Below are positions 1,509 to 30,794 of a DNA stretch of 64,000 nucleotides, one piece after another. Numbering within the stretch: position 1 is the stretch's first letter; the number at the start of each line of letters is the position of its first letter. A program made the translations under genes and the position numbers. Source of the DNA: Terriglobia bacterium. GTDB taxonomy: Bacteria > Acidobacteriota > Terriglobia > 20CM-2-55-15. The DNA lies in assembly GCA_036496425.1 (NCBI GenBank), contig DASXLG010000248.1, positions 1 through 64,000 on the forward strand. The letters are read 5' to 3'. The notes beneath the pieces are model-generated. The model saw nothing but the letters and a program-made list of their open reading frames with translations, had not been told where the DNA came from and ran no database searches.

Positions 1509-2522
1509 TCATTGCAGCGACTCCCACTGCACCGGCGCTCCGGCTTCAATCGCGGTGAGGGCCTGTCTGCCTACGACGGACCCGACAAATTCGGGCGCGA
1601 TTCCGGTGGCCGGACGCAACGCGTGAAGCATGCCGGCATCAATGATCTCGCCGGGCGCGATCGGCCGGCTTGCGTAAAGGGCCCTGCGCGACGCTGTCTT
1701 GTTCCGGCTTTCAGATTCGGAGGCAAACTTGCCGCGCTCGCCGAGAACGGAGCCGATGGCTCGCAGCTCTTCGATATGAGCTTTGAGAGTCTTGGCATCC
1801 ATCGACACGGCATGATCCGGTGTCTCTACCCGGGTCTCGATCATGAAATGCCGCTCGATAACCTGCGCTCCGAGCGACGTTGCAACGATCGATCCCAGGG
1901 ATCCGACGCTGTGATCGGAGAAACCGACAGGAACTCCAAAACGATCGCTCAAATACTGCACGGACTTGAGGTTCAGTTCTTCGCGCTTCGCAGGATATGA
2001 CGAGACGCAGTGCAGGAGAACCACCTCGTCGTTCAAATGGGTGTGCATCCAATCGATCGCATGCTCGATTTCTTCCGCCGTGCTCATCCCGGTCGAGAGC
2101 AGCACCGGCTTGCCTTTTCGGGCCACGTGTTCGATCAGCGGCCGGTGCGTAATGTCGCCGGACGCAATTTTGAACGCGCTTACGCCGAGATCGTTGAGGA
2201 AGTCGGCACTCTCTTCATCGAACGGCGTCGATAGAAATTCGATGCCGACCCGCTTTGCCTCTTTGTGCATGGCGCGGAAGGTGTCGAACGACAGTTCCAG
2301 CCTGGTCTGGGAGGGGACCGCAGATTTCGCCGACGCCGGACGGTCGGCACGAAACATTTGAAAGTTCACCGCATCGGCGCCGGCCCATTTTGCGGCCCGG
2401 ACGAGCGCAAGCGCCCTTTCCTTATTTCCTCCGTGATTGAAACCCGCCTCCGCGATTACATAAATCCTGTTGGGATTTTCGGTCAGCAGGCCGTAAAGGT
2501 TTTGACTTGGCTGGTCAGCCAT
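1509..2522 (-). CDS. NeuB/SpsE-family nonulosonic acid synthase
   Basis: A 337-residue sialic-acid-synthase family enzyme that condenses phosphoenolpyruvate with a six-carbon sugar to give a nine-carbon nonulosonic acid. Visible motifs are VIAEAGFNHGG near residue 21, the barrel segments FLSTPFDEESADFL, KIASGDI and STGMST, and GFSDHS. A C-terminal SAF/antifreeze-like domain begins around residue 275 (RRALYASRPIAPGEII). The exact product (pseudaminic, legionaminic or another acid) cannot be read from the sequence. Its 5' end overlaps the 3' end of the pseG/spsG-like gene by 40 bases, supporting one operon. Confidence 0.88.
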   Translation of the reverse strand: MADQPSQNLYGLLTENPNRIYVIAEAGFNHGGNKERALALVRAAKWAGADAVNFQMFRADRPASAKSAVPSQTRLELSFDTFRAMHKEAKRVGIEFLSTPFDEESADFLNDLGVSAFKIASGDITHRPLIEHVARKGKPVLLSTGMSTAEEIEHAIDWMHTHLNDEVVLLHCVSSYPAKREELNLKSVQYLSDRFGVPVGFSDHSVGSLGSIVATSLGAQVIERHFMIETRVETPDHAVSMDAKTLKAHIEELRAIGSVLGERGKFASESESRNKTASRRALYASRPIAPGEIIDAGMLHALRPATGIAPEFVGSVVGRQALTAIEAGAPVQWESLQ

Positions 2523-3478
2523 ATTTGCCTCCTTATAATTTCGACTACTCGTGACAATCCTTTGCCATCAACAAGTGTTGGGCCGGCCTGGCTGAGTCGT
2601 TGGATCATAGGCCGGTTTTCAAGCATCTCCGTGCTGTAGCGCACCAGGTCGTCTGACGAAACGCGCCGCACAGGGCCGGCGCTCAGAACGGCGCCATGCT
2701 CGTGAAACGCATCTGCGGTTCTCAACTGAATCCGATCGAAGGCAACGGCAATGGTCGGAACGCCGGATGCCAGCAGGTCATATAGCGTTGGCCCGGAACC
2801 GGAAATCGCAAACCGGCAGGTCGCCATCGCATCCGCAAATTCCGCGTCGCTCATGGGCGTCGTGCCGATGAATCCGCGCGTCGTAATCGGCATCAGGCCC
2901 ATGCGCCACAGCTCCTCCGAAATCTTTAGAGCGAATTGCGAGGTCGATCCGCCGCCAAAGGTCACCAGGACGGTGTCCTTGAGCTTGCCTCGGTTGACGG
3001 TTTCTCGCGTGATCATGTACTGCGGGCCGAGAAACAGTGCGCGATCCTTGTCGGCCGCGTATGGAAACAGGCGCGTGATGCTGCCGTCGATCGCGACATC
3101 CGAATGGCACTGGCCGAGGCCCAGGTCATGAATACTGATGTGGGTGGAGCCCTGCCGCCGTATCGAGGCCGTGATGCCATGCGCTTCACGCAAATCCGTT
3201 ATGACCACCGGAGGAAATGCCGATGATGCCGTCGTGGTGAAACCCGACGCTTCGATGAATTCGCGGCAGTTTTCCGAAAGCGGAAAGAAAACTACCGGCT
3301 GCCGGCGGCTTAGAGCGCGCGCCAGACGCACGCTCCGCATGGCATGGCCGTAACCCAGTTGCGGGCCGGCATCGACAACGATTCCGACTTGTCCTTCGAG
3401 ATCCATGGGGATGCCCTGGCCGGCCTGGGGATAATCGGTGGGTAATTCGACTTCAGTCTCGTTGCTCATCACATCCAT
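2483..3478 (-). CDS. PseG/SpsG-like nucleotide-sugar hydrolase
   Basis: A 331-residue protein with the N-terminal motif DAGPQLGYGHAMRSVRLARAL, close to the G-G-H-x-x-R signature of PseG, and a C-terminal GT-B-type half with GSGPTLYDLLASGVPTIAVA. PseG removes UDP from the sugar precursor before NeuB-type condensation; SpsG is the equivalent in the Bacillus sps set. The ATG at 3478 has a GGAAG ribosome-binding site about 10 bases upstream. The N-terminal 30 residues are weakly conserved, so an internal ATG is possible. It is the first gene of the spsG-E-F-flbD-motA run. Confidence 0.75.
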   Translation of the reverse strand: MDVMSNETEVELPTDYPQAGQGIPMDLEGQVGIVVDAGPQLGYGHAMRSVRLARALSRRQPVVFFPLSENCREFIEASGFTTTASSAFPPVVITDLREAHGITASIRRQGSTHISIHDLGLGQCHSDVAIDGSITRLFPYAADKDRALFLGPQYMITRETVNRGKLKDTVLVTFGGGSTSQFALKISEELWRMGLMPITTRGFIGTTPMSDAEFADAMATCRFAISGSGPTLYDLLASGVPTIAVAFDRIQLRTADAFHEHGAVLSAGPVRRVSSDDLVRYSTEMLENRPMIQRLSQAGPTLVDGKGLSRVVEIIRRQIWLTSQVKTFTAC

Positions 3479-17684: not shown

Positions 17685-19928
17685 CTATCGCCAGCCCCTT
17701 GAGGCCAGGGCCACGAGATTGTCCACAGATAAGCGGCTGCCGGCACGGGCGTTCGCGCTGCGAACCTGATCCGGCGATATCCCCGAGTTGCGCATTCTCA
17801 CGAAATCGTCGATTTTGATGCCTGTGTAACCGAGACTTTGCATCTCCCGCACGTAATCCGGATCGACGCCGTGATTGCGAAGCTCGGTCAAGGTGTCGAG
17901 CGGCAGTTTTGCATATCCAAGTGCGCCGAGTTCGCGTGCGTAATCCGCATCGATGCCGTGGTTCCGAAGTTCGATCAGTCTGTCGAGAGTCAGGTTCGAG
18001 TATCCGGCGGAGGCAAGTTCCCGGCTGTATTCGGCGTCGACGCCATGATTGCGAAGCTGGATGAGTGTGTCGACGGGAAGCTTCGGATAGCCCTGCGCCG
18101 CAAGGTCACGTGCGTAGTCCGCATCCACGCCATGGTGACGGAGCTGGACCAGTTCATCCAGAGGCAGCTTCGCGTAACCCAAGCTTGCCAGGGCACGAAT
18201 GTATTCTCCATCGACGCCGGAATTCCGGGCGCGAAGGAGATCTTCAATAGAAAGCTTCGGCAGGCCTGCAGCCGCGAGATCGCGAATGAAATCGGGCGAG
18301 ACGCCGTGCCGCGACAGGTTGAGTAGATTGCCGAGTGTTCCGCCGTTATATCCCAACCGGCCCAGCTCGCGAAGATATGAAAGGCTGATGCCTTGGCGCG
18401 CGGCCTGAACAAGTTCGACGAGATGCGCCGGGCGAGCATAATGCTGAGCAACAAGCTCATCCAGGAAGGCGAAGCCGATATCCGTGCGTGCGAGCAGACG
18501 CTGCTCGACCAGGCCTGGCCGCTCGAAACCCCGCTTGGCGAGTTCGTCAGGAAACGTCGCGCTGGCTGCAAAGGTATATGTCCCGGCGCCAACGCCGTTT
18601 CGGATAACCCCCTCGACGGCAAATGTCCCGGCGTCGCGCCGCATATCGAAATGCACGGGACCTCCAACACCGGGGAATCCTGCCGGAAGCTCCGGCGTGT
18701 GGTCGAGGTCGATGGTGGTTGAATAAGAACTGCCGCCTTCTCTCAGTTGGAGATGCAGGATTCGCGCCTGACCTGTGGGACGAACTTCCCATACACCAAC
18801 GGCGTCCGCGGATTCCGGCGATACGGCTTGCACAAGGCCGGCTACCGCGAGCCCGAAGGTTGAACGCCCCGGCAACTTGACGGGCGAGCCTGGCGCCGCA
18901 GGCTGCCGGGCGGCTGTTGTCGCTGCGGCAATCGGGATCAGTAATGCAAATAGGATTCCGAGGGCCAGAAGATGACTGCGCAGCGCAGGCAGTGTACGGT
19001 TGCGAGCGCCGTCGAGCACTGCCAGCAGGCGCTTTTCAAGCTGCCCCGAACCCGCCATGCTCACGACAAGCGCGGTTTGCCGGCCGCTCTGGAGCGAATA
19101 AGCGATGTCCAGCAGATGGCCGGCATACTTGCGCGGTTCATCGGTTCCAAGAGAAAGCACACGATCATCACTTGCCAGCTCGCGCTCGACCCGGAGACGG
19201 CGTGCAATCCACCAGGCACCCGGATGGACCCAATAAACCGAACACACCACGGCCGCCAGAACCTGAGTCAAACAATCATTCCGCACCACATGCGCTATCT
19301 CGTGGAGTAGTACGGCCCTGCGGCGATCCTCTGACCAGGTATCCGCGATCGCCGGAATCACGATCGCACCGCCCAGAATTCCGAATGCAGCCGGCATGAT
19401 CTGCTCGTGGCTGCGCCATAGTTTGATCCTTCGCCCGGCGCGCATTCGTTGACAACACTCCAGCAGCAGGCGCTCCCATTCCGGATCATGGACTTCGCCT
19501 GCGCCACGCATCAGCCGCCCTGCCGAAAAGAATTCGGCAATCAGACGAAGCAGCAGAACAAATGCCACGCTTGCGTAAACAAGTTCGAAAGCGCGGAACC
19601 AGGGGAAGCCTGCCGGATTCGCCTGCAACGAGCGTTGCTCCATTGAAATGTTCAACGGCTCTGCGATCTGGACAGAATCGAACGGGGAATGTGGTTGGCC
19701 CGCAACGATGCCCGGAGATTCGATAAGGTTTTCGGGCGCCGTCGTCACGATGGTCCAGGGCGGCAGCACAAATGAAAACACAGGAACCAGCAGGAACCCG
19801 GCGGCGGCCAGTGTCCAGACCAGATGACGCGTCGCCGCGGACATCCGGCGGCCCCACAATGCCTGAAGCAGCCCGGCGGCAAGAAAAAGAATCGAGGCCT
19901 TAAGAAGGATGGAAATCGGTGTCATCAT
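17685..19928 (-). CDS. BlaR1/MecR1-type M56 metallopeptidase sensor with C-terminal 29-residue repeats
   Basis: A 747-residue membrane protein. The N-terminal part has helices near residues 5-22, 35-52 and 112-132 and the zinc motif HEIAH at 209-213 with a downstream ERELASDD that can supply the third ligand, as in M56 peptidases that cleave BlaI-type repressors. A further membrane helix lies around 320-340. The second half has a beta-rich stretch, then at least eight repeats of 29 residues (consensus YxRELxxxGYxKLxxDxLxxLRNHGVDxD). There is no penicillin-binding domain, so the signal sensed is not obviously a beta-lactam. It overlaps blaI by 4 bases. Confidence 0.88.
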   Translation of the reverse strand: MMTPISILLKASILFLAAGLLQALWGRRMSAATRHLVWTLAAAGFLLVPVFSFVLPPWTIVTTAPENLIESPGIVAGQPHSPFDSVQIAEPLNISMEQRSLQANPAGFPWFRAFELVYASVAFVLLLRLIAEFFSAGRLMRGAGEVHDPEWERLLLECCQRMRAGRRIKLWRSHEQIMPAAFGILGGAIVIPAIADTWSEDRRRAVLLHEIAHVVRNDCLTQVLAAVVCSVYWVHPGAWWIARRLRVERELASDDRVLSLGTDEPRKYAGHLLDIAYSLQSGRQTALVVSMAGSGQLEKRLLAVLDGARNRTLPALRSHLLALGILFALLIPIAAATTAARQPAAPGSPVKLPGRSTFGLAVAGLVQAVSPESADAVGVWEVRPTGQARILHLQLREGGSSYSTTIDLDHTPELPAGFPGVGGPVHFDMRRDAGTFAVEGVIRNGVGAGTYTFAASATFPDELAKRGFERPGLVEQRLLARTDIGFAFLDELVAQHYARPAHLVELVQAARQGISLSYLRELGRLGYNGGTLGNLLNLSRHGVSPDFIRDLAAAGLPKLSIEDLLRARNSGVDGEYIRALASLGYAKLPLDELVQLRHHGVDADYARDLAAQGYPKLPVDTLIQLRNHGVDAEYSRELASAGYSNLTLDRLIELRNHGIDADYARELGALGYAKLPLDTLTELRNHGVDPDYVREMQSLGYTGIKIDDFVRMRNSGISPDQVRSANARAGSRLSVDNLVALASRGWR
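17688..18377 (-). repeat. 87-bp in-frame tandem repeats in the BlaR1-like gene
   Basis: Seven full units of 29 codons plus one of 27, at the 3' end of the gene; a weaker ninth unit precedes them. Conserved positions are Y1, L5, G9, L13, D16, L18, L21, R22, H24/S24, G25 and D27. The pattern suggests a helical solenoid for protein or ligand binding. Confidence 0.85.
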
Positions 19929-20320
19929 TTGTCTCCGTGTTTGCGGGATTGCTTCAACAAGGCGCTGAGACGTTTGTATTCTTCGTCCGATATGGCGGCG
20001 CCGGACGTCGCATCGAGCAGGGCGGCCATGGCCGAGCTTGGCGAATTGTCGAAAAATGTCCGTACCAGATCCTTCAAAGCGGAACGGCCTGCGTCTTCAG
20101 GAGCAGTCGAGGGGAAGTACATGAACCGCGGACCATCGTATTCTCTGGCCAGCAGTCCGCGCTCGATCATGATCTCGAGCAGCTTGCGTACGCTCGATGG
20201 ACTCGGCGCGTCCGGCAATTCCGCCCGGATCTCCTCGACCGCCGCCCGGCGGCGGCGATGAAGAATCTCCATGATCTGGCTCTCGCGCCGTGTGAGATGA
20301 ATTCGTCTGAGTCTCGGCAT
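19925..20320 (-). CDS. BlaI/MecI-family transcriptional repressor
   Basis: A 131-residue winged-helix repressor: HLTRRESQIMEILHRRRRAA, SPSSVRKLLEIMIERGLLAR and a C-terminal dimerisation helix LKDLVRTFFDNSP. The partner sensor peptidase gene overlaps by 4 bases. GGAG lies 7 bases before the ATG. A perfect 16-bp palindrome 34 bases upstream is the likely operator. Confidence 0.93.
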   Translation of the reverse strand: MPRLRRIHLTRRESQIMEILHRRRRAAVEEIRAELPDAPSPSSVRKLLEIMIERGLLAREYDGPRFMYFPSTAPEDAGRSALKDLVRTFFDNSPSSAMAALLDATSGAAISDEEYKRLSALLKQSRKHGDK

Positions 20321-20410: not shown

Positions 20411-20435
20411 CTCCCCGCCTAAGCTAGGCGGGGAG
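20411..20435. repeat. GC-rich hairpin at the 3' end of the kinase gene
   Basis: Perfect 11-bp stem (CTCCCCGCCTA and its complement) with a 3-base loop. The kinase stop codon TAG lies in the stem. There is no T-run, so it is not a classical terminator. The stem shares CCCCGCCT with the repeat elements at 24421 and 57316. Confidence 0.6.
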
Positions 20436-23400
20436 TTTCAGGGCGAATGCGTGGCCGTGGGCTGTGAAGGCGAAGACCCGGCGGCCATCCACAAGCGTGG
20501 TCGAAGCCGGCCAGAGCAGATCCAGCTTGCGATTGTTCTGTTTCGCTACAGCTGCTGGCGGAACTGCCGCTTGAAGTGAGCCATCCGTAGCGCGGAGCGC
20601 GTAGGTTTGCTGGCCGACGGAATACATGACGGCGTTGTCATGGGCGGCGAACATCCGGATAGGTTCTCCGGCGTCGCGGCTGCCGATCTTCAGGGTTTGG
20701 TTATGGGTCCAGGCGCGGGCGCCGGAGACCGCGTCGAAGGCGTCGACGAAGACCTGAACCGTGTGGGTGTTGATATCCGGCACCACGCTCGCAACGAAGA
20801 TGCGGCCGGCGGCGTAGGCGATCCAGGCCTGATCGATGCGCTGTTTTCCTTTCCAGGTGGCGAGCTGTTTGCGGTCGCCTGTGCGCACGTCGACGCGATA
20901 GAGGAAGACGCTGTTCAGGTCGGCCTGGCTTCCGGCGGCATAATATAAATAAGGTAGCGGGTCCTTCACGGCGACCGACGCGGTAAAGCGTTCGGTTGGG
21001 AACCGCCACGCGAGGGCGCCGGTGTCGGGATCAAGCCCGACGATCGAGCGATCCAGCGGGACGCCCTCGGCGTCCTGGGCAGACTTCCGGCCGGCGCTCA
21101 CCAGACGATCTCCGATCAAAACCGGATCGCCGGCCACATCGAAGCCGACATCCGACACCCATAGCAGCCGATGATCCCGCTTCAGTTCCGCGATCGTGCG
21201 GCGGCCCTCTTTCGAATCGAGTCCGGTGAGATCCGCGTATCGCGCCAGTTCCTTTCCGCTGCGCGCCTTGTTTCCTTCGGCCTGCGACAGCCGTGCTTCG
21301 AGCAGCACCAGCGGAGGATAATCCGGATCGAGCGACGATGCTTTGGCGGCGAAGACGCGCGCTTGAACCAGATCATGCCTGGCCAGATATGTCCGTGCCA
21401 GCTCCGTCTCCGTGTCCTTGTCCGTCACGGCGTTTGCCTGCGCTGCCGTCGCATATTCCTTGATGCCCGTGACGTCGAGGATAAAGAGCCGGCCCGCTTC
21501 GGCCAGGACGGCGGGCGTTTCGGGTCCTTCGTAGTGCCAGATTTGTTTGCCGGTTGCGGTCTCAACGGCGGAAATCTGAAGCGGCGAATTGTAGACGACG
21601 GCCGTGCCGTTCAGGAAAGTCACGCCGGGTCCCATGTCGACCGACGGGTATTCCCAGATTTTGGCGCCGTCCAGCGTGAAACCGTAAAGCGTGTTGTTCG
21701 ATCGCACGACGAGGCCATCCTCGTCGACGCGGTCGAGCAGAACGCCGCGGTCCGTCACTTTGATGGTGTTGAGGATTCCTCCGGAGGCTGCGTCGAGAAC
21801 CAGGATATCGCCCTGAGCCGTACCCAGGTAGAGCCGGTTCCGGAGCAGCCGGAAATGTTGCACCCGCCTCTGGACCGGCGTGCGCCACAGCAGGCGGAAT
21901 TTCGTCAGGTCGATGGCGCAAACCTCGAAGTCTTTCGACAATATATAGAGGACGTTGCCCTGAGCCATAGCTCCGGCCAGCCACTTCGGCCCCGCCACTG
22001 TCCGCAAGACGTCGGCGTATTGTTCGATCGCGATTTCGCCCGCAGCCTTCCCGGTTTCCAGATCGACAAAGAAAACGCGCCGCTCCGGCTCGAAGACGGC
22101 CAGGCCCTTTTCCGTCAGGAGCTCCGAGGGTTTCTCCGAGTGGACGCTCACGGACCAGGCGTCGCTCCCATCCGATTTGCGGATGGCCCGGTACGTGTCC
22201 CGGGATTTGAAGATGAAAATCTCGCCGTACGCCTTCGTGCGCGCGGTCCATGGCGCCTCGGTGCCGTCCACGGCCAGGTCGTCCCGTCTCCACAGACGAT
22301 CGCCCGTGCGGCCCTCAAGGAGATCGAAACGCTGCAGAGCCGGGTAATAGATGTAGACGTCGGTGCCGATCGGCGCGAATCGCGGGGCATCGTTTCCGAA
22401 ATCGGCGAGTTCGCTATGCCAGCCCAGGCTGCCGTCCTTCGCAAACGCATATAAGCCGATTTTCCGTTGCGCAGGAGGAGCGTTCGCGTCGATCGAGGCC
22501 ACGAGGGTGAGGGTGTCGTTGCCATAGGCATTGGTGAGAATGATGTTTTCATCCGCCACTTCCACACGGCGGACCGAACCCTTTTCGAGATTCACGAACT
22601 GCAGGACTGTCGACTTGCCGTTGCGTTCGGCGTAGACAGCGCGCTGCAGGGGTGTCGCCTTTCGTGGAGCAAACAGATCCCGCTGGTTATGAAACGCCGC
22701 CGCGTTGTTCGCGCGGATCATACCGCGGATGGGATTGGCATACATGGGATCCCAGTTCGACAAGACCGTCTTTTCGGATTCGGATTGCGGAAGGGCGCGC
22801 ATCAAAGCGTCGCTGGCCTCGTCGAGACGGTTCAGCTTCTCGAGCGCGAGGCCGCGGTAATAATTGGCAGCGGGATATTGGGGATCGCTGGCAATCGTCC
22901 GGTCGAACGCTTTCAGCGCACCCGCGGCCAGATCATTCTGGAGGAAGTACACGCCGCTCGAAAATGCCTGGAAGGCTTCGATGCTGTGGCCGGTGGGAGC
23001 CTGCTTCTCCGGTCCTTGCGCGGCGGCGACAATCAGGACGGCGAGTTGTCTGGCGAGATCGCCCTGCAGCTTGAAGAGGTCTTTGAATGGGCCGTCTGCC
23101 GTACTGGCAGAGCGGATAACCTCACCGGTTATGGGATCGACAATGCGTCCGATCAGCCTCACGTCATTGCCGGTTGTCTGGAAGCTCCCGATGATCAGGG
23201 CGTCGACGCCGATCGCCTTACCGATCTCGCGGGCGGTGGCAGCGGGAAGCTGATCGAACTTAGGGATCTCCACGTCATGAACCGTATCGATCACGCGGGC
23301 GCGCTCGACGACGGTGAGGCCGGTCACCTGCGCGAGCTCGGCGGTGATGGTTTCGGCAATGCCGGCGGTGTAGGGATCGAGCGCGCTGTCGCCGCTCAGG

Positions 23401-24347
23401 TTGAGGAAGTTGAGGACCGCGACGCGATGGATGGTCTTCGGCTGCTGTTTCGCAACCTTTTCGGTCGATGGGACGGACGGCACGCGAGCCGCAGGACGCG
23501 ACAGCCTGGAGCCTTCTCGATCGACCGCGCCTACGGAAGAGAAGAAGTACACGGCGACGAGGATCAATGCGATGGCCGAAGCGGCGAGAAGTGCGGTGCG
23601 GCCTTTGGATAATTGCAGCTTTGGCGCCTCGAGGCCCAACGCAACCCGGACTTGGTCAACGGAGTTGTAGCGGTTCTTGCGATCGATTTCGATGCAGCGT
23701 TCTACCACGCCCTTCACATCGCCGGGCACGCCGGGCGGAAGCTCGAGCGGCGCGGGCGGTCTGGGGCGTACGCCCGACAACATTTCACCGAGAACGCGGC
23801 CGAAGCAAAACAGGTCTGCGCGGGCGTCGCATTTCGCGCCCATTGCCTGTTCGGGAGCGCCGTAGGCAGGCGTGCCGCCCGGAGTGTTTCCTGTTTCGAA
23901 ATCGACGGGATCGATCGGGCGGGCCTGTCCCAAATCCAGGATTTTCACGTGGCCGTCGCGGGTGAGCATGAGGTTTGAGGGTTTCAGGTCGAAATGGATG
24001 TGTTTCATCTCATGGATCGCCTTGAGACCGTTAAGGATCTCGACGACGATGGCCTGCGCTTCGCTCCAGGAAAGCGGTCCTTCAAGGAGACGGTCGGCGA
24101 GAGTGCGCCCGTCGATGTACTCCATGACAAGGAGTTTGGTTCCGTCCTCTTCCACGAAGTAAAGATAGATGCGGCACACGTTGAGATGCGTGACCTGGTG
24201 GGCAATGAAGACCTCGCGCACCGGGGCGCCGGGGAGATTATGGAAGACCTTCACCGCGACGACTTGGGCCGTGAGCGTGTCTAAGGCTTTATAGACAATG
24301 CCGGAGGTTCCCCGGCCGAGTTCGCGTTGGAGGTGGTATCTATTCAT
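20424..24347 (-). CDS. Giant membrane Ser/Thr protein kinase with CsgG/FlgO-like, TPR and PQQ-propeller parts
   Basis: A 1307-residue protein. Residues 1-250 are a Hanks-type kinase: GRGTSGIVYKA loop, VAVK lysine, catalytic HFDLKPSN in place of HRDLKPxN, DLG in place of DFG, and GTPAYGAPEQ. A membrane helix follows (about 262-285). Next comes a CsgG/FlgO-like domain (RVAVLNFLNLSGD ... VGVDALIIGSF type motifs), a TPR segment (GALKAFDRTIASDPQYPAAN), and a long series of PQQ/WD-like blades (for example IVGLDPDTGALAWRFP). The outer part is presumably periplasmic. It has a near-perfect sigma-70 promoter and no ribosome-binding site. Confidence 0.88.
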   Translation of the reverse strand: MNRYHLQRELGRGTSGIVYKALDTLTAQVVAVKVFHNLPGAPVREVFIAHQVTHLNVCRIYLYFVEEDGTKLLVMEYIDGRTLADRLLEGPLSWSEAQAIVVEILNGLKAIHEMKHIHFDLKPSNLMLTRDGHVKILDLGQARPIDPVDFETGNTPGGTPAYGAPEQAMGAKCDARADLFCFGRVLGEMLSGVRPRPPAPLELPPGVPGDVKGVVERCIEIDRKNRYNSVDQVRVALGLEAPKLQLSKGRTALLAASAIALILVAVYFFSSVGAVDREGSRLSRPAARVPSVPSTEKVAKQQPKTIHRVAVLNFLNLSGDSALDPYTAGIAETITAELAQVTGLTVVERARVIDTVHDVEIPKFDQLPAATAREIGKAIGVDALIIGSFQTTGNDVRLIGRIVDPITGEVIRSASTADGPFKDLFKLQGDLARQLAVLIVAAAQGPEKQAPTGHSIEAFQAFSSGVYFLQNDLAAGALKAFDRTIASDPQYPAANYYRGLALEKLNRLDEASDALMRALPQSESEKTVLSNWDPMYANPIRGMIRANNAAAFHNQRDLFAPRKATPLQRAVYAERNGKSTVLQFVNLEKGSVRRVEVADENIILTNAYGNDTLTLVASIDANAPPAQRKIGLYAFAKDGSLGWHSELADFGNDAPRFAPIGTDVYIYYPALQRFDLLEGRTGDRLWRRDDLAVDGTEAPWTARTKAYGEIFIFKSRDTYRAIRKSDGSDAWSVSVHSEKPSELLTEKGLAVFEPERRVFFVDLETGKAAGEIAIEQYADVLRTVAGPKWLAGAMAQGNVLYILSKDFEVCAIDLTKFRLLWRTPVQRRVQHFRLLRNRLYLGTAQGDILVLDAASGGILNTIKVTDRGVLLDRVDEDGLVVRSNNTLYGFTLDGAKIWEYPSVDMGPGVTFLNGTAVVYNSPLQISAVETATGKQIWHYEGPETPAVLAEAGRLFILDVTGIKEYATAAQANAVTDKDTETELARTYLARHDLVQARVFAAKASSLDPDYPPLVLLEARLSQAEGNKARSGKELARYADLTGLDSKEGRRTIAELKRDHRLLWVSDVGFDVAGDPVLIGDRLVSAGRKSAQDAEGVPLDRSIVGLDPDTGALAWRFPTERFTASVAVKDPLPYLYYAAGSQADLNSVFLYRVDVRTGDRKQLATWKGKQRIDQAWIAYAAGRIFVASVVPDINTHTVQVFVDAFDAVSGARAWTHNQTLKIGSRDAGEPIRMFAAHDNAVMYSVGQQTYALRATDGSLQAAVPPAAVAKQNNRKLDLLWPASTTLVDGRRVFAFTAHGHAFALKLPA

Positions 24348-24362
24348 ATATGGAGTGGCGGC

Positions 24363-24390
24363 ATTATATGATTTCCGGTAAAAGTGTCAA
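24363..24390 (-). promoter_or_regulatory. Consensus sigma-70 promoter for the kinase gene
   Basis: Minus strand TTGACA - 16 bases - TATAAT, both hexamers perfect. The start point should fall near 24356, only about 8 bases before the ATG at 24347, so the message would be nearly leaderless. Confidence 0.85.
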
Positions 24391-24420
24391 CGGATTGAGG
24401 TTTTGGGTTAAAGCTGCCCC

Positions 24421-24512
24421 ATTCCCCGCCTTTCCAAGGCGGGGAGGCTGCGCGCATCAAAGATTCCAGAATTGCGCGCAGCCGGGGCGGTTAGTAACTT
24501 CCATCAACAATA
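24421..24512. repeat. Hairpin repeat element, left-half copy
   Basis: Begins ATTCCCCGCCTTTCCAAGGC, a perfect hairpin, then a second inverted pair built on GGCTGCGCG/CGCGCAGCC, then GTTAGTAACTTC. The same order is found at 57316-57500. The right-hand terminal repeat of that copy is missing here. Confidence 0.65.
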
Positions 24513-24516
24513 GGTT

Positions 24517-24714
24517 CTACAGCGGGGGTTCCGCTTTAATCAGCGACGCATCCAGCGGCTGACCCGTGTTCTGCTCATACGCCTGAACCGCCTTGCCGAT
24601 GATGCTCACCAGCGCCGCAGCCAGGCCCGCATCCTGCTGAACCGTGCCCGTGGTCTGGCTCTTCACAATCGACAGGGCCAGCTCAATGATCTCGAGAGCG
24701 AAGTTGGTGTTCAT
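24517..24714 (-). CDS. Hypothetical protein, 65 aa (last gene of the sigma-54 operon)
   Basis: A small helical protein (MNTNFALEIIELALSIVKSQ ... AVQAYEQNTGQPLDASLIKA). I do not recognise a family. Its ATG overlaps the stop of the lipoprotein gene (ATGA), so it is translated with it. It ends next to the repeat element at 24421. Confidence 0.6.
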   Translation of the reverse strand: MNTNFALEIIELALSIVKSQTTGTVQQDAGLAAALVSIIGKAVQAYEQNTGQPLDASLIKAEPPL

Positions 24715-25079
24715 TGCGCCTCCTCAAATGCCCGGATCGCGGTGGTCAAGTCCGAGAGATTCTGATTCAGCGTGTCGAGATACTGCTGCGGAGGAGCGTT
24801 CGTCGTCATCGCCCCGCGATAGGCGATCCACGAAGCCCGCGCGAGATTGTACGACTTGATCAGCGCATCCAGCGCCGGTTTAGCCGAGCCGTCGAGCGGA
24901 AGCACCCGCGCCTGATCGATCGTCACTCCGGCGACCATCAATGCGTCGTACGCCACCGAATCGGCCTGATTCAGCGCGCCCGGATGGACGACATAACGGT
25001 TGGCGCACGCCGAAAGCGAGATCACGAGCGCCAGGACAAGTAAAAGCCCAAACTGATGTTGTGCTGCAAATTCAATCAT
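24711..25079 (-). CDS. Small lipoprotein, 122 aa, unknown function
   Basis: Begins MIEFAAQHQFGLLLVLALVI and continues SLSACANRY: a signal peptide with lipobox L-S-A-C, so a membrane-anchored lipoprotein. The mature part is helical (ALIKSYNLARASWIAYRG, LDTLNQNLSDLTTAIRAFEE). I choose the ATG at 25079 because AAAGGAG lies 8 bases upstream; the open frame extends to 25178 through the next gene. Third gene of a four-gene operon behind a sigma-54-type promoter. Confidence 0.7.
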   Translation of the reverse strand: MIEFAAQHQFGLLLVLALVISLSACANRYVVHPGALNQADSVAYDALMVAGVTIDQARVLPLDGSAKPALDALIKSYNLARASWIAYRGAMTTNAPPQQYLDTLNQNLSDLTTAIRAFEEAQ

Positions 25080-25093
25080 GGTCGTTTCTCCTT

Positions 25094-25276
25094 TCATAAG
25101 CCGCCCCTGCAGGTTTTGCAGAGGTGTAGATACGCCGCCGTCAGCGCGGCCCAGCCGCCGCGAAGCCAGAACTGCCATCGTTCGAGGGCCGCGACCCGCT
25201 GGTAGAGATCGCGGATCCCGGCCAACTCGCCTTCGATGTACCCGAGAGCCCGGAGGATTTCGTCATCTTTGTTCAT
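25094..25276 (-). CDS. Small membrane protein, 60 aa
   Basis: MNKDDEILRALGYIEGELAG, a short coiled-coil (IRDLYQRVAALERWQ), then one membrane helix (FWLRGGWAALTAAYLHL) and a CKTC end. The layout recalls phage XhlA-like proteins, but similarity is too weak to claim this. It overlaps the upstream gene by 14 bases and precedes the lipoprotein gene by 14. Confidence 0.6.
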   Translation of the reverse strand: MNKDDEILRALGYIEGELAGIRDLYQRVAALERWQFWLRGGWAALTAAYLHLCKTCRGGL

Positions 25277-25661
25277 AACGGCCTCCTCCGGACCTGCCGG
25301 TCAGATCGCGTACGATGTCGAGGATGTTTTTCGACGACTCGTCCGCCCGATGCACGACGTCCAGCAGGTCATCGCTGTCGGCGAAGACTTCGTGACTCAG
25401 GTCGAAAGTGTCACTGCCTTCCTGCGCCAGCTTCGCGGTGACATAGAGAGATGTGGAAATGGTCACCATCTCGCAGGCGAAATTGAGGATCTCTTCGACG
25501 ATGTCGAGGAGATCCTCGGCAACCGCCTGGGTGCTCGGATGGGCGCGCAGGCAGGCCGCGGTAATCTCCGCGCGTTCGGTTAACAGGTCTGCATGCGCCA
25601 ACCGGAGGCTGGATTCCTCATGATCGGCGAACTCGAGGTTGTCTTCTTCTTCAAACTTCAT
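25263..25661 (-). CDS. Hypothetical helical protein, 132 aa (first gene of the sigma-54 operon)
   Basis: An acidic, helical protein (AVAEDLLDIVEEILNFACEM ... DDLLDVVHRADESSKNILDI). The end is basic. I do not recognise a family. It has a good AAAGGAG-type ribosome-binding site and lies 66 bases downstream of a sigma-54-type promoter that has twin palindromic activator sites. Confidence 0.6.
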   Translation of the reverse strand: MKFEEEDNLEFADHEESSLRLAHADLLTERAEITAACLRAHPSTQAVAEDLLDIVEEILNFACEMVTISTSLYVTAKLAQEGSDTFDLSHEVFADSDDLLDVVHRADESSKNILDIVRDLTGRSGGGRYEQR

Positions 25662-25727
25662 GGTCTTGCTCCTTTTTGTGATTTGTTTTTGCGGGCTGTG
25701 CCCGCGTTCGTTACGCGGATGTATAAG

Positions 25728-25742
25728 GCACGGCCCCTGCCG
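25728..25742 (-). promoter_or_regulatory. Sigma-54-type promoter of the four-gene operon
   Basis: Minus strand CGGCAGGGGCCGTGCC; GG and GC are exactly 10 bases apart (GGCA ... TGC). The -24 GG pairs at 25740-25741. The nearest twin-palindrome centre is 82 bases upstream. Confidence 0.6.
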
Positions 25743-25812
25743 AACGGGCGGAGCAAAACCAAACGTGATTTTTCAGTGGGTTATCGATCCAGTGCGGACT
25801 GCGGCGGGCGGT

Positions 25813-25854
25813 TTTTGAACCGGCAGTTCAAAATCTCTGAACTGCCAGTTCAGA
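25813..25854. promoter_or_regulatory. Twin palindromic activator sites (set 1)
   Basis: Two palindromes with the core GAAC-N5-GTTC: TTTTGAAC/GTTCAAAA at 25813-25833 (centre 25823) and TCTGAACTGCCAGTTCAGA at 25836-25854 (centre 25845). The centres are 22 bp apart, two helical turns. They lie just downstream of the activator gene and upstream of the four-gene operon. The same motif recurs at 28690-28728. Confidence 0.75.
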
Positions 25855-25860
25855 ACGCAA

Positions 25861-27726
25861 CTATCGTTCCTTATTTTCGTCCTTGAGAAGGCGGTAAATA
25901 TAACGTTCGCTGTACCCCATGCGCCTGGCGGTCTCCGCAATACTGCCGGTTTCAGCGTAAATCCTCGCGGCCTCGGCCCTCAGTATCTCGTGCGCGATCT
26001 TGCGGGCGTCCATTTGAACGGCACCTTGTGCAGGCGCTGCGCCTGCTGCTGCCGCAGCCGCACGCCGGGGCTCGGTCAGCGCGGCCGGCAGATCCTTCAG
26101 CCGGATGACGTCGGAACGGCCGGCTTTCGCAAATGCAATCCCGGAGCGGACCAGGCCGCGAAGGTCGCGGATGTTGCCCGGCCAATCGTAGGCCAGCATG
26201 GCTTTCAGCGCATCCGTCGCAACTCCGGTAACGCCCAGGCCGGTCCCGAAGCGGCCCAGAAAATAATTGATGAGCAGCGGGATATCTTCGCGGCGGTCGC
26301 GCAAGGGCGGGACGACGATGGTGATGTCCTTCAGACGCTGGTAGAGATCCTTACGAAACTTGTGCTCCCGAACCGCCTGTTCCAGATCGACATTCGTGGA
26401 TGCGATCACACGGACGTCGACTTTGACGGTGCGTTGGGCTCCGACCGGCTCGAACTCGTACTCCTGCAGGGCGCGGAGCAGTTTGGGCTGCATCTCCAGC
26501 TTCAGCTCGCCGATTTCGTCCAGCAGAAGCGTCCCGCCGTCGGCCTGCTTGAACTTGCCGTCGCGGGATTCGGTCGCGCCGGTGAAGGAGCCTTTGACGT
26601 GCCCGAACAACTCGCTTTCGAACAGCGTTTCGGTCACGGCCGGGCAGTTGACGGCGACAAGGGGTTGATCGGCGCGGCTGCTCCTCGCATGAATACGGCG
26701 GGCGACCAACTCCTTGCCGGTCCCGGTTTCCCCGTGAATCAGAACAGGGATGTCCATACCCGCGGCCACCTCGATGTGTTCGAAAACGGTTTGAATGGCT
26801 TCGCTCTCTCCAATGAGCTCATCGGCGAACCGGTGCTCGGCTTTCAGCACGTCCCTTTCATGACGGATCGATTCAACCTGCCGCGACTCGCGCAGCCCGG
26901 CTACCACGGTTTCCGCCAGGTCCTCCGCCCATTGCAGGTGTTCCGGCTCGAAAGCGCGCGCGCCGCGCACTCCTTCCAGATAGAGGACGCCTTTGATCTG
27001 TCCGCTGGACAGCAAAGGAACACAAATGGTGGGGGGAACGATCGTCCCGGGCATGCGAGGTTCGCGCTTCGCATACACCTCCGCCACGAGCCGGGTGTTG
27101 TAAGGAAACGGCGTATCGAGGCCCGAATCGGCCTCGCGATAAACCTGAAGAACGAAATCGGCAGGCTCGGGACCGATGCGCCTGCCGTTGATCAGGATCG
27201 CTCCGCGCCTCGCAGGAATGATGTCCAAAATCAAATCCAGCAGGCCCGCCAGCAGCTTGCCCGGATCTTGAATCGCGGTCAGGCAGCGGCCCGTCTTTAA
27301 AGAGGCCCCGAGCCCGCCGCGGTAATAGGCCTGGGTGTCCTCGATCGAGGAGTAGTCTACGCGCAATGTTTCCAGCTCTTGGTTTTTCGCAATCTCGCCG
27401 GCGCTCACGGTGAGAAATTTCTGCGGCACCTTGTCTTGAATCAGGCAGACAAAGATCGTGCTGCCGCACTGGATCCGGCTGCCCTCCTTGAGGTCGTCCC
27501 CGCGGAGACGCACTTCACCGTCGACCCGCACTCCGTTCCGCGTGCCGAGATGGCGGAACCAGAGCTTGCCGGCCTCCCGCCAGAACGAAAAATGCTGCCG
27601 GGAGGCCAGCTCATCGTTGAGAACGATATCGTTGCCGGCGGCTCTGCCGACGGTGGTTTCTTCGTCCTTGAATGGAAACTCGGAATCCTTCAGTGGTCCT
27701 GAAAGCGCTCTAAGTCTGTCGTTCAT
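25861..27726 (-). CDS. Sigma-54-dependent activator with FHA, GAF-like, AAA+ and Fis-type HTH domains
   Basis: A 621-residue enhancer-binding protein. Residues 1-95 form an FHA domain (TVGRAAGNDIVLND, ASRQHFSF, GTRNGVRVDG), which reads phosphothreonine. Residues about 140-300 look like a GAF domain (RRGAILINGRRI, LLSSGQIKGVLYLEG). The AAA+ domain has GETGTGKELVARRIH (Walker A), GSFTGATES (the sigma-54 contact loop, GAFTGA type), GGTLLLDEIGEL (Walker B) and NVDLEQAVREHKFRKDLYQR. The C-terminal helix-turn-helix is SIAETARRMGYSERYIYRLL. FHA input implies control by a Ser/Thr kinase. Its likely targets are the two flanking sigma-54 promoters. Confidence 0.92.
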   Translation of the reverse strand: MNDRLRALSGPLKDSEFPFKDEETTVGRAAGNDIVLNDELASRQHFSFWREAGKLWFRHLGTRNGVRVDGEVRLRGDDLKEGSRIQCGSTIFVCLIQDKVPQKFLTVSAGEIAKNQELETLRVDYSSIEDTQAYYRGGLGASLKTGRCLTAIQDPGKLLAGLLDLILDIIPARRGAILINGRRIGPEPADFVLQVYREADSGLDTPFPYNTRLVAEVYAKREPRMPGTIVPPTICVPLLSSGQIKGVLYLEGVRGARAFEPEHLQWAEDLAETVVAGLRESRQVESIRHERDVLKAEHRFADELIGESEAIQTVFEHIEVAAGMDIPVLIHGETGTGKELVARRIHARSSRADQPLVAVNCPAVTETLFESELFGHVKGSFTGATESRDGKFKQADGGTLLLDEIGELKLEMQPKLLRALQEYEFEPVGAQRTVKVDVRVIASTNVDLEQAVREHKFRKDLYQRLKDITIVVPPLRDRREDIPLLINYFLGRFGTGLGVTGVATDALKAMLAYDWPGNIRDLRGLVRSGIAFAKAGRSDVIRLKDLPAALTEPRRAAAAAAGAAPAQGAVQMDARKIAHEILRAEAARIYAETGSIAETARRMGYSERYIYRLLKDENKER

Positions 27727-27765
27727 GGGGCGGGCATGTTAGGGCTGTAGCGATGCGATTGCAAG

Positions 27766-27808
27766 AAAAAAAACCCCTTGCCGCACCGGTGAAACGGGCG
27801 GCAAGGGG
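27766..27808 (-). terminator. Intrinsic terminator after the FN3 gene
   Basis: On the minus strand a perfect 10-bp stem CCCCTTGCCG/CGGCAAGGGG around a 15-base loop, followed by eight T. It ends transcription of the fibronectin-type gene before the activator gene, so the two are separate units. Confidence 0.9.
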
Positions 27809-27850
27809 CTAAGGAGAGTTCGATGAGTTACACCGGCGCCAATTTACGAA

Positions 27851-28495
27851 CTACGTCGACATCATTGTCACGGAGTCGCTCCAATCGGTAGATCCGAGAG
27901 GGCCCAACGCCCGGACCTGAAACGCATAGACGGTGCCGGGAGTGAGGTTGCCGATCAGCATTCCCTTTTTCACCGTGGTCATCGTTTCCGTCGTCCATGG
28001 ACCGGGATTGCCGTTGGCCATCGCGGCGTATCGCAGGTCGTAACTCGCCGCGTTCCGGATCGCAGCGACCCGGACCAACAGCTGTCCGCTGTTGGCGCCG
28101 TGCACGATCTTCTTCACGACCGGCGGAGTCAGCGGCGCCGCCGACGATTTTGTCGTCGTGGCGGGCTGGAAACCGCTCGTCGTAAAGATAGCGAGATCGT
28201 CGCCGCAATTCGCTTCGACATAGACCGCGAGTTGCCTCATCATTTTGATCAAGGTCTCACGGTCGCCGTCTTTTGCGGCGATGGCTTTCTTGCTTCCATC
28301 CAACGCCGCCGCGATTGCGGCCGCAAACGTGTCGATCATTGTCTTGAACGTTGCCAGATCCACAGCAGGGTTCAGGAACTTTGCATTTCCCGTCAGTCCC
28401 GCCAGCACCGCCGTGGCGCGGGCCAGGACACTGGCGTCGCTCATGGTCCTGAAACCCAGCATCGGTCGTATCGGGTTGATCTTATTTGTCGTCAT
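27851..28495 (-). CDS. Fibronectin type III domain protein, 214 aa
   Basis: N-terminal part helical (ATAVLAGLTGNAKFLNPAVD ... RETLIKMMRQLAVYVEANCG), C-terminal FN3 domain from about residue 122 (LLVRVAAIRNAASYDLRYAA ... LTPGTVYAFQVRALGPLGST). No signal peptide is visible. Ribosome-binding site AAAGGA lies 8 bases before the ATG. It has its own sigma-54-type promoter with twin activator sites and a strong terminator, so it is a one-gene unit. Related proteins of this layout are known from other environmental bacteria, without a function. Confidence 0.75.
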   Translation of the reverse strand: MTTNKINPIRPMLGFRTMSDASVLARATAVLAGLTGNAKFLNPAVDLATFKTMIDTFAAAIAAALDGSKKAIAAKDGDRETLIKMMRQLAVYVEANCGDDLAIFTTSGFQPATTTKSSAAPLTPPVVKKIVHGANSGQLLVRVAAIRNAASYDLRYAAMANGNPGPWTTETMTTVKKGMLIGNLTPGTVYAFQVRALGPLGSTDWSDSVTMMST

Positions 28496-28600
28496 ACCGT
28501 CATCCTTTCGATGTGTTTTGGTTCATTGTTTATGTTTCGGAAGAATCCAATCCGGCGCTTCACCGGTTATTTTCTCCCCGCCAGGGAACGCGCATATATT

Positions 28601-28616
28601 CGCAATCCCGCAGCCA
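28601..28616 (-). promoter_or_regulatory. Sigma-54-type promoter of the FN3 gene
   Basis: Minus strand TGGCTGCGGGATTGCG: TGGC and TTGC with GG-GC spacing of exactly 10. The -24 GG pairs at 28614-28615, 83 bases from the nearest palindrome centre, nearly the same as at the other operon (82). Confidence 0.7.
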
Positions 28617-28672
28617 AAGCCGCCAGGAAATACCAAGCGTGATTTATCAACGAGTTAGCTTTTGAGAGGGGA

Positions 28673-28728
28673 TGAACTGCGGCCGGATTTTGAACTGCCA
28701 GTTCAATTTTTGAACTGCCAGTTCAAAA
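28673..28728. promoter_or_regulatory. Twin palindromic activator sites (set 2) plus a half-site
   Basis: TTGAACTGCCAGTTCAA at 28690-28706 (centre 28698) and TTTTGAAC/GTTCAAAA around TGCCA at 28708-28728 (centre 28718), 20 bp apart. A half-site TGAACTGC is at 28673-28680. Same motif as at 25813-25854. Confidence 0.78.
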
Positions 28729-28753
28729 TCAGCACGATGGAAACCAAATCCGA

Positions 28754-29440
28754 ATCTTTAAACACAACATTTAAAGATGAACCAGAACACGCGATCTTTG
28801 TCGCCACAATTTAAAGATGGGATTAATGATCGACATCTTTAATCGCATGTTTTAAAAATGCGACCAGAAATGCCAATCATTAACCCCATGTTTAAAACAT
28901 GAAGTCAAACTCGCAATCTTTAATCGAGTCCTTCGAAGATCGGATTAAAGATCTCGATCTTTGAGCCCAAAAGTCAAAAATGGCGTTAAAGATGGATATC
29001 TTTAAACCGATCCCGAAAAGATGTGATCCAAGATGGCCAACATTAACCCGATCTTGAAAAAATAGATTTAAAGATGCGGATCATCAATTCAATCCTCGAG
29101 ACACCGGGTTAAAGATCGAGAACTCTGGATCCATGTTTTGGAAATGGCGCTAATGATCGCGATCTTTACTACTTCCCTGAAGAATGCGCTTAAAGATCTG
29201 TATCTTTATTCCCATTTTCAAAACATGAATTTAATGTTCTGGGGCTTCAAACCCGAAATTTAAACATCAATCCAAAGATGTAAAGATTCGATCCATGGTC
29301 GGCAAGATTAAGCCAATGTTTTAAAAACGCATTTCAAGATTCCGATTTTGGGATGCATCTTAAAATCATTAATCCCATCTTCAAATCATTCTTTCTGTTT
29401 TTCGATGTTTTGTTTAAAGATGCCGAACATCAGAATGTTG
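28754..29440. repeat. Array of about 17 degenerate 41-bp palindromic repeats, AT-rich
   Basis: Unit starts read at 28754, 28794, 28835, 28876, 28916, 28957, 28998, 29039, 29080, 29121, 29162, 29202, 29243, 29284, then about 29325, 29365 and 29405: steps of 40 or 41. The approximate consensus begins ATCTTTAANCCCATNTTT, has NAAAGATGNGATTAAAGAT after it, and a 3-4 base spacer. It is self-complementary (ATCTTTAA at one end, TTAAAGAT at the other), so each unit is a dyad. Units differ at many positions. The period is not a multiple of three and no open frame runs through, so it is not coding. Confidence 0.85.
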
Positions 29441-29651
29441 TCCTCGCCTTTCGGACGGAAGCAACCGAACCATTCTGGACCTGCTCAAGGGTTCCCGCTT
29501 TTAAGAATTCCGGAAAGTGACATCTTCCCGATACTTTAGGTTTTGTGAATTCGGAAAATAGTGACGGCGCAAATTGCCGCTTCGCACCACATGACTTGCA
29601 AAAATGTGAGGCACCGCTGACTTGATTACCGCAGTTTTCACAAAAGGGCAT
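29430..29651 (-). pseudogene. Zinc-ribbon protein, probably truncated
   Basis: Starts MPFCENCGNQVSGASHFCKS followed by CGA: a clear zinc ribbon with two C-x-x-C knuckles, usual at the N terminus of longer membrane proteins. The remaining 48 residues are not recognisable and the frame stops at the edge of the 41-bp repeat array, so the rest of the gene has probably been lost or replaced by the array. It could also be a short intact protein. Confidence 0.5.
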
Positions 29652-29718
29652 TGCGGTGATTAAACAGCACGCATCCTGTTGTTGTCAAAGTTGAGAGTGG
29701 ATGTTTAGGAAGGTCAAA

Positions 29719-29886
29719 TCACTTACGTTTTCGCGGTCGGCCACCAGCGTGAGTCTTGCGCTTGGCTTGGATCTTACGGAAATACTCCGGTCCTCGTTCT
29801 TTCATCAACCTTGCTCCCGTAATCTCACCAGCCGCCTTCAAAATCCAATCGTCCCGTAGCCGCTTCCCGCAGTGCGGGCATTGCAT
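29719..29886 (-). CDS. Small zinc-knuckle basic protein, 55 aa
   Basis: MQCPHCGKRLRDDWILKAAG continues EITGARLMKERGPEYFRKI and ends in a basic AGGRPRKRK tail. One C-x-x-C knuckle at the N terminus plus a basic end suggests nucleic-acid binding. The frame from 29886 to the TGA at 29719 is complete. Similar short zinc/basic proteins are seen in mobile or accessory DNA, but I do not know a named family. Confidence 0.5.
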   Translation of the reverse strand: MQCPHCGKRLRDDWILKAAGEITGARLMKERGPEYFRKIQAKRKTHAGGRPRKRK

Positions 29887-29987
29887 CTATGTCGGGGATA
29901 TTATGGTGCCTCATAATGAAGCGGGCCACTCCTTTGTTGAGCAGGCCCGACCGGACCACCTTCCCCCAATTGGGTTGAAATCGACAT

Positions 29988-30794
29988 ATGGAAAGTAAGG
30001 TCGAACAGCTAAAGGCGCTAATTGTCGAGGGCGAGAAATTCAGCTTCGCCAATTTTTCAATCCGGACGGACTCTAAATACGGAGGAGAGGATACTCCAGC
30101 ATGGCTAACATGGAAGACCCGCGTGCGATTCGTATTGAACGGACTGGTAAGCGAACAGTCAGCGCCAATGGCATTGTGCGCTAAAGCGCAGGGTATTTTA
30201 ACAGCCGGAAATCTCGCAGATAGCTTCGACGCCCAAAAAGGTATGCTTCTTGCGGCACTAAAAGAAACGCTGACAGTAGTTGAAGGTGACCCGTACGGCG
30301 AAGCGGCGCAACAAAAAGCTGTGCCGAAATCTGCGGTAATTTCCAACCATGTTTTCATTGTGCATGGACACGATCACGCGTTGAAGACGGATTTAGAGGT
30401 ATTCCTCAAGGGCATCGGGCTAGAACCTATTGTGTTGCACCGTCAGCCGGATGAAGGGAAGACGATAATCGAGAAGTTCGAGAAGCATGCTGACGTGGGT
30501 TACGCATTTGTTCTCCTCACTCCTGACGAACTGGCTTACACGGTAGACCAGGAAAAGCTGCCTGAGGATCAACGCAAGAAGGAGTATCGTGCCCGCCCGA
30601 ATGTGATATGGGAATTCGGCTTTTTCAGCGGCCGGCTAGGGCGTAGTCGGGTTTGTTGCCTGCTCAAAGGAACCGTCACAAAACCCAGTGACATTGATGG
30701 CCTTGTGTACAAAGATGCTTCCGGCGGTGTGGAAAGTATTGCGTACGCCATCATCAAGGAGCTTAAAGCGGCGGGATACATAATCAAGATCTGA
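29988..30794 (+). CDS. TIR-like nucleotide-binding protein (CAP12/PF10137 type)
   Basis: A 268-residue protein. The N-terminal about 115 residues form a helical domain. The C-terminal part has HVFIVHGHDHALKTDLEVFL, PIVLHRQPDEGKTIIEKFE, AFVLLTPDELAY and RPNVIWEFGFFSGRLGR, the marks of the TIR-like family PF10137. Members act as NAD-degrading effectors in antiphage systems such as CBASS or Pycsar. The glutamate in IWEFGF is the expected catalytic residue. No nucleotide cyclase gene is adjacent, so the trigger is unknown; the next genes are unrecognised. Confidence 0.8.
   Translation: MESKVEQLKALIVEGEKFSFANFSIRTDSKYGGEDTPAWLTWKTRVRFVLNGLVSEQSAPMALCAKAQGILTAGNLADSFDAQKGMLLAALKETLTVVEGDPYGEAAQQKAVPKSAVISNHVFIVHGHDHALKTDLEVFLKGIGLEPIVLHRQPDEGKTIIEKFEKHADVGYAFVLLTPDELAYTVDQEKLPEDQRKKEYRARPNVIWEFGFFSGRLGRSRVCCLLKGTVTKPSDIDGLVYKDASGGVESIAYAIIKELKAAGYIIKI

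Follow-up and report, generated by a model that had tools for sequence, protein, structure and literature searches.

Type 10 secretion systems (T10SSs) are described as descendants of phage lysis cassettes that lie outside prophages under tight regulation, as host-owned clusters of holin, endolysin and spanin genes (PMC10847048). Together with the lysis regions of tailed phages, and with the FHA enhancer-binding proteins that serve sigma-54 promoters and lie next to Ser/Thr kinases, they are the known systems with which the present locus was compared. The locus lies in a stretch of 64,000 nucleotides from a Terriglobia bacterium, hereafter the window, where a first-pass annotation had proposed an operon of four small genes under a sigma-54 activator, whose products could form an envelope-associated complex with a nearby FN3 protein. 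This interpretation is partly borne out by our analysis. The reading we prefer, tentatively and at a little less than an even chance, is that genes 2 to 4 are a phage-derived, host-adapted block, and that a kinase/FHA/sigma-54 switch co-activates the FN3 gene and this envelope set.

The four-gene operon is real. Its genes run on the minus strand from 25661 to 24517 and, as read from the open reading frames, overlap or abut, with a 14 bp overlap, a 14 bp gap and a 4 bp overlap in order of transcription. First, ACID (25263-25661) encodes an acidic helical protein of 132 aa (pI 4.3), found at this locus only. Second, TMC (25094-25276) encodes a 60-aa coil protein with a short C-terminal hydrophobic segment. 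Third, LIPO (24711-25079) encodes a lipoprotein of 122 aa, in a short form that has no holin-like N-terminal hairpin. Fourth, S65 (24517-24714), which overlaps the LIPO stop by 4 bp, encodes a helical protein of 65 aa (pI 4.4). A strong Shine-Dalgarno sequence stands ahead of each of the four starts (AAAAAGGAG, GGAGGAGG, AAAGGAGA and GAGGAGG), and GC3 is 0.71-0.80 versus a GC2 of 0.38-0.48, with neighbouring genes alike. When genes 2 to 4 were compared with their homologues, dN was 0.30-0.53 and dS 0.93-1.8 or saturated; since dN is well below dS, these genes are coding, under purifying selection, and more than chance open reading frames. No family at a meaningful E-value was found for any of the four proteins in Pfam, NCBIfam or PHROGs. 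Thus, the description of four small, overlapping or close genes of no known family holds. PADLOC gave no match of the four genes and the FN3 protein to any anti-phage defence family, and its matches for their neighbours were no more than generic kinase and AAA+ ones; an Rfam scan of 24300-29900 returned no match. Between the operon and the downstream kinase gene we also observed a REP-like inverted repeat (24416-24502; CCCCGCCTT..AAGGCGGGG with GGGGCGGTTAGTAACTTCC), which is present as well at locus L136 (~3220-3410), and whose 19-bp core occurs at 55 places in the genome at no more than one mismatch.

The assignment of a lipoprotein among the four products is supported by a lipobox, LSAC, that ends at Cys25. 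The structure model of this protein (pLDDT 86) consists of a signal helix and a three-helix bundle, a generic helix bundle for which fold searches of BFVD and the PDB gave nothing below an E-value of 0.001. TMC had been described as a single-helix membrane protein with a coiled coil, and this is weakly supported in the window copy, whose best 19-residue hydropathy is 0.63, the paralogues ranging from 0.71 to 1.65; that it is anchored in the membrane is our guess, given the weak hydrophobic segment of the window copy. A lipoprotein next to a possibly membrane-associated coil protein nonetheless supports a predicted envelope location. Two candidate identities for TMC were rejected, namely, an XhlA-like haemolysin, which the layout suggested but no Pfam match accompanied, and a metal repressor, matched by one TMC member at an E-value of 0.017 that we took as chance. 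ACID has no homologue among the 101 relatives searched, and a 66-aa gene at the equivalent place in locus L063 showed no homology to it.

Upstream of the operon, on the minus strand, lie an activator gene (25861-27726), with domain matches to FHA, GAF, AAA+ sigma-54 interaction and HTH domains, and the FN3 gene (27851-28495), whose product combines a helical domain and an FN3 domain (domain match; model pLDDT 93) and whose fold search was dominated by matches to the FN3 domain itself. Two copies of the palindrome GAACTGCCAGTTC stand ahead of the operon and two ahead of the FN3 gene, with a putative sigma-54 site accompanying each pair. Before the operon, the operator pair (GAACTGSCRGTTC; 25817-25851, minus strand, made up of 25817-25829 and 25839-25851) is followed by a stretch similar to that of the FN3 gene and then by P2, a sigma-54-like -24/-12 element (CGGCAGGGGCCGTGCC; 25727-25742, minus strand) recognised by eye at a position homologous to P1. 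The latter, which is the candidate sigma-54 element for the FN3 gene (TTGGCTGCGGGATTGCG; 28601-28617, minus strand), has a p of 0.02 against shuffles, and its operator pair spans 28692-28724 (28692-28704 and 28712-28724, minus strand, 20 bp apart). Between these operators and P1 stands TATCAACGAGTTA (28645-28657, plus strand), an IHF-like site by comparison with the IHF consensus, which recurs in L063 and L136.

These operators are nearly private to the locus. Allowing up to one mismatch, the palindrome GAACTGSCRGTTC has 10 matches in the window against 0.33 expected; over the whole genome, the exact pattern gives 12 strand matches, namely, seven at the window promoters, two in contig C307 and three single ones elsewhere, and the reversed pattern, used as control, gives zero. 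The sole other full copy of the operator in the genome stands ahead of L136, a sister locus in C307 with 20-bp repeats, the operator, an IHF-like site, a sigma-54 site (TTTGGCACGGCGGTTGCG), an FN3 gene, an activator 75% identical to that of the window, and a paralogue of the window's kinase, from which the four-gene operon is absent. RpoN is encoded in the genome. That the FHA activator controls operon and FN3 gene alike through sigma-54 is therefore a well-supported prediction from the operator distribution, and this part of the first-pass annotation stands. Downstream of the operon, the Ser/Thr kinase gene (20424-24347, minus strand), with matches to TPR and PQQ-type propeller domains, probably encodes the upstream sensor of this activator. 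Adjoining it is a gene for a Penicillinase-repressor regulator of the BlaI/MecI type (19925-20320, minus strand; PF03965, E 2e-21).

The FN3 gene belongs to a large family, which numbers at least 30 copies in the 6.2 Mb genome of the window, at least 28 in a sister genome, and a member in a genome from another class of the phylum. Sigma-54 sites beyond shuffles (p<0.05) were found in 14 of 45 upstream regions of the family. A second operator, CGCAACCTRTAGGTTGCG, marks five FN3 loci (L065, L067, L072, L092 and L099), three of them with a divergent FHA activator; its core occurs at five places in the window genome, four of which precede FN3 genes. An automatic search for pairs of even-length palindromes before FN3 genes, which misses odd-centred operators such as those of the window, recovered 4 of ~44, with ~0 expected.

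A second feature of these genes is the repeat array upstream of them. In the window, a degenerate array (28727-29430) with a period of ~41 bp, made up of two 20.5-bp units, is built around TTAAAGAT/ATCTTTAA. Periodicity at 19-22 or 39-43 bp exceeded the 95th percentile of control stretches in 29 of 42 FN3 upstream regions, and their mean autocorrelation peaked at 20/21, 40/41, 60 and 80-82 bp, the unit corresponding to about two helical turns. The arrays are non-coding, lie roughly 200-700 bp upstream of the FN3 genes (other examples being L064, L080, L084, L092, L100 and L136 1-190), and have a repeat sequence that is locus-specific, close paralogues excepted; we found no description of such arrays in the open-licence literature. 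A wider reading, which we consider possible but doubtful, is of a multi-copy acidobacterial system in which each FN3 gene stands behind its own array of ~20.5-bp helically phased repeats, a subset having a private kinase/FHA/sigma-54 operator, and phage-lysis-derived envelope cassettes are accessory to the family. If true, this would make the arrays regions of a new kind, through which control or recombination is addressed to each gene individually. Not far from the window's FN3 locus there is also a gene for a CAP12/Pycsar-type TIR protein (29988-30794, plus strand; PF10137, E 4e-33), possibly a defence effector.

The relatives of the operon were mapped with one profile per protein, which gave 54 loci. 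Genes 2 to 4 occur together in a genus of group 5 Acidobacteria, three of whose genomes have about a dozen such sites; LIPO has seven places in the window genome, of which two are fragments, besides six in the two other genomes of the genus. Across the phylum, a LIPO match of any kind turned up in 6 of 297 sampled genomes, that of the window counted. Wherever all three occur, namely, in the window, L019, L021, L022, L025 and L027-L030, the order TMC-LIPO-S65 is constant; the cassettes of L020 and L026 stand at contig ends. At all complete cassettes but that of the window the trio comes directly behind an FN3 gene with no activator between. Thus, the expected conservation of gene order, and co-occurrence with the FN3 gene, is true of genes 2 to 4 but not of the acidic gene, nor of the FHA activator, which is missing from every complete cassette other than the window's, so that the activator switch is special to this locus. 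Most FN3 genes, in turn, occur without the trio, and L063 has an FN3 gene, an FHA activator (40% identical), an unrelated small gene and TMC, without LIPO and S65.

What follows S65 differs among the cassettes. A Peptidase_M15_3 gene lies behind it in L026-L028 (E 9.5e-19 in L027), a protein with the motif RNNNPGDL but no Pfam match in L022 and L025, and in L030 one whose peptidoglycan-binding match is weak; in the window there is no hydrolase open reading frame, the kinase gene coming next. Most host copies of LIPO, and that of the viral contig L109, are of a long form in which a membrane hairpin precedes the lipobox, the hairpin-less form being that of the window and L025. Several copies are broken: the LIPO of C207 is split over two frames (2483-3071), fragments of it remain in C168 (10193-10462) and C250 (14888-14995), the TMC of C262 is truncated and L141 is rearranged, showing that cassettes decay besides multiplying. 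These broken copies, and the loss of the hydrolase and the holin-like part from the window, could be taken to mean that the cassettes are lysis-region debris scattered among FN3 genes by phage integration and recombination, of which the window copy would be the best preserved but idle. We consider this rather unlikely, as the operon genes of the window are intact, strongly coupled, provided with ribosome sites and have a dN well below dS, and their operon has gained an operator pair and a promoter matching those of the FN3 gene.

A phage connection is found for two of the four genes. In IMG/VR, three contigs were detected through LIPO and a fourth through S65; inspection showed both genes together in all four (L109-L112; hmmsearch E-values of 9e-44 to 8e-24 for LIPO and 2.5e-30 to 3e-11 for S65), the LIPO stop and the S65 start being no more than a few bases apart or, in L109, separated by a 48-aa gene. 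Near the pair there are a lysozyme in L109, an M15 peptidase in L110, a glucosaminidase and terminase- and portal-like genes in L111, and terminase- and portal-like genes in L112; in a prophage of genome G026, LIPO-S65 lies behind tail- and capsid-like genes (terminase, portal, tail and capsid genes were read by eye). GenBank phages and plasmids gave no meaningful match for LIPO, its N-terminus, S65 or FN3. Neither TMC nor FN3 was found in the viral contigs, using a pattern-based scan whose reach is limited to fairly close relatives, and the phage link is therefore limited to two genes. LIPO-S65 looks phage-derived and, from its position beside hydrolases, like a pair from a lysis neighbourhood. 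The opposite direction, in which acidobacterial genes were captured by phages, we regard as improbable. The LIPO of L109, the closest viral copy, has 53% identity to that of the window and, like host copies, a fused hairpin, so that recent exchange is possible in either direction; however, the pair also occurs in viral contigs that are divergent (34-40% identity) and, in another family, close to phage genes, and just 6 of the 297 sampled genomes show any match.

Phage lysis genes had been named beforehand as the match that would count against the original interpretation, and such a match exists for LIPO-S65 but not for a hydrolase or a holin-like segment, which the window lacks; on that account its operon is not a lysis cassette. 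No holin was recognised in it, by family match or as the hairpin of the long LIPO form. As for spanins, LIPO is a lipoprotein, but its Rz-like match has an E-value of only 0.08, and the hydrophobic segment of TMC is C-terminal, unlike in Rz. These observations also bear on the idea of a release device akin to type 10 secretion, in which the signal-less FN3 protein would be freed in a few cells by holin, hydrolase and envelope steps. Sister cassettes that hold FN3, the coil protein, a fused hairpin-lipoprotein, S65 and an M15 peptidase speak for it, as does the precedent of the T10SSs, tightly regulated descendants of phage lysis cassettes (PMC10847048). This idea fits such hydrolase-bearing cassettes better than the window copy, which has neither hydrolase nor hairpin; moreover, no holin or spanin family is matched and FN3 genes mostly occur without a cassette, and we deem it unlikely.

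Returning to the regulated, host-adapted block that we prefer, gene structure, relationships, phage context and operator distribution can be read directly from the sequences compared, and the following course of events would be consistent with them. LIPO-S65 would have been joined to TMC in an acidobacterial genus and set behind members of the FN3 family, and the cassette would then have multiplied, in many cases followed by a peptidoglycan hydrolase. The window cassette would have become a four-gene operon, with an acidic first gene and its own operator pair and sigma-54 promoter like those of the FN3 gene, lacking both the holin-like N-terminus of LIPO and the hydrolase. We infer a kinase-FHA link, by which a signal would be sensed by the Ser/Thr kinase (20424-24347) and the resulting phosphothreonine read by the FHA domain of the activator; the latter would bind at the paired GAACTGCCAGTTC sites and, aided by DNA bending of the IHF type, co-activate the FN3 gene and the operon. 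The lipoprotein, the coil protein in its presumed membrane position and S65 might then act as an envelope-associated set, perhaps a complex, that helps to anchor, export or release the FN3 protein, and that alone would not lyse the cell.

If so, the host, a member of a poorly studied phylum, would have turned genes of a phage lysis region into an envelope operon under its own regulation. The regulatory takeover would be readable in the sequence, where both promoters carry one and the same operator pair and a sister locus has no such operon. With its private operators and private phased arrays, the FN3 family would moreover offer a testable regulatory design, of which we found no description.

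Compared with the known systems, the locus shares features with each. First, as in the lysis region of tailed phages, LIPO-S65 stands beside lysozyme, glucosaminidase or M15 endopeptidase genes in L109-L112, and sister host cassettes retain an M15_3 peptidase behind S65; in contrast, the window operon has no hydrolase, holin-like hairpin or neighbouring capsid or tail gene, and appears to be under sigma-54 together with an FN3 gene. Second, as in T10SSs, genes of a phage lysis region seem to be placed outside a prophage under host regulation, although the window operon has no clear counterpart of any of their three defining components. Third, as in systems where FHA enhancer-binding proteins act on sigma-54 promoters and lie next to Ser/Thr kinases, the window has an FHA-GAF-AAA+-HTH activator, a candidate sigma-54 element, paired operators, an IHF-like site and an adjoining kinase, but here the activator clades appear to serve single FN3 genes by way of operators that differ from each other and are nearly private.
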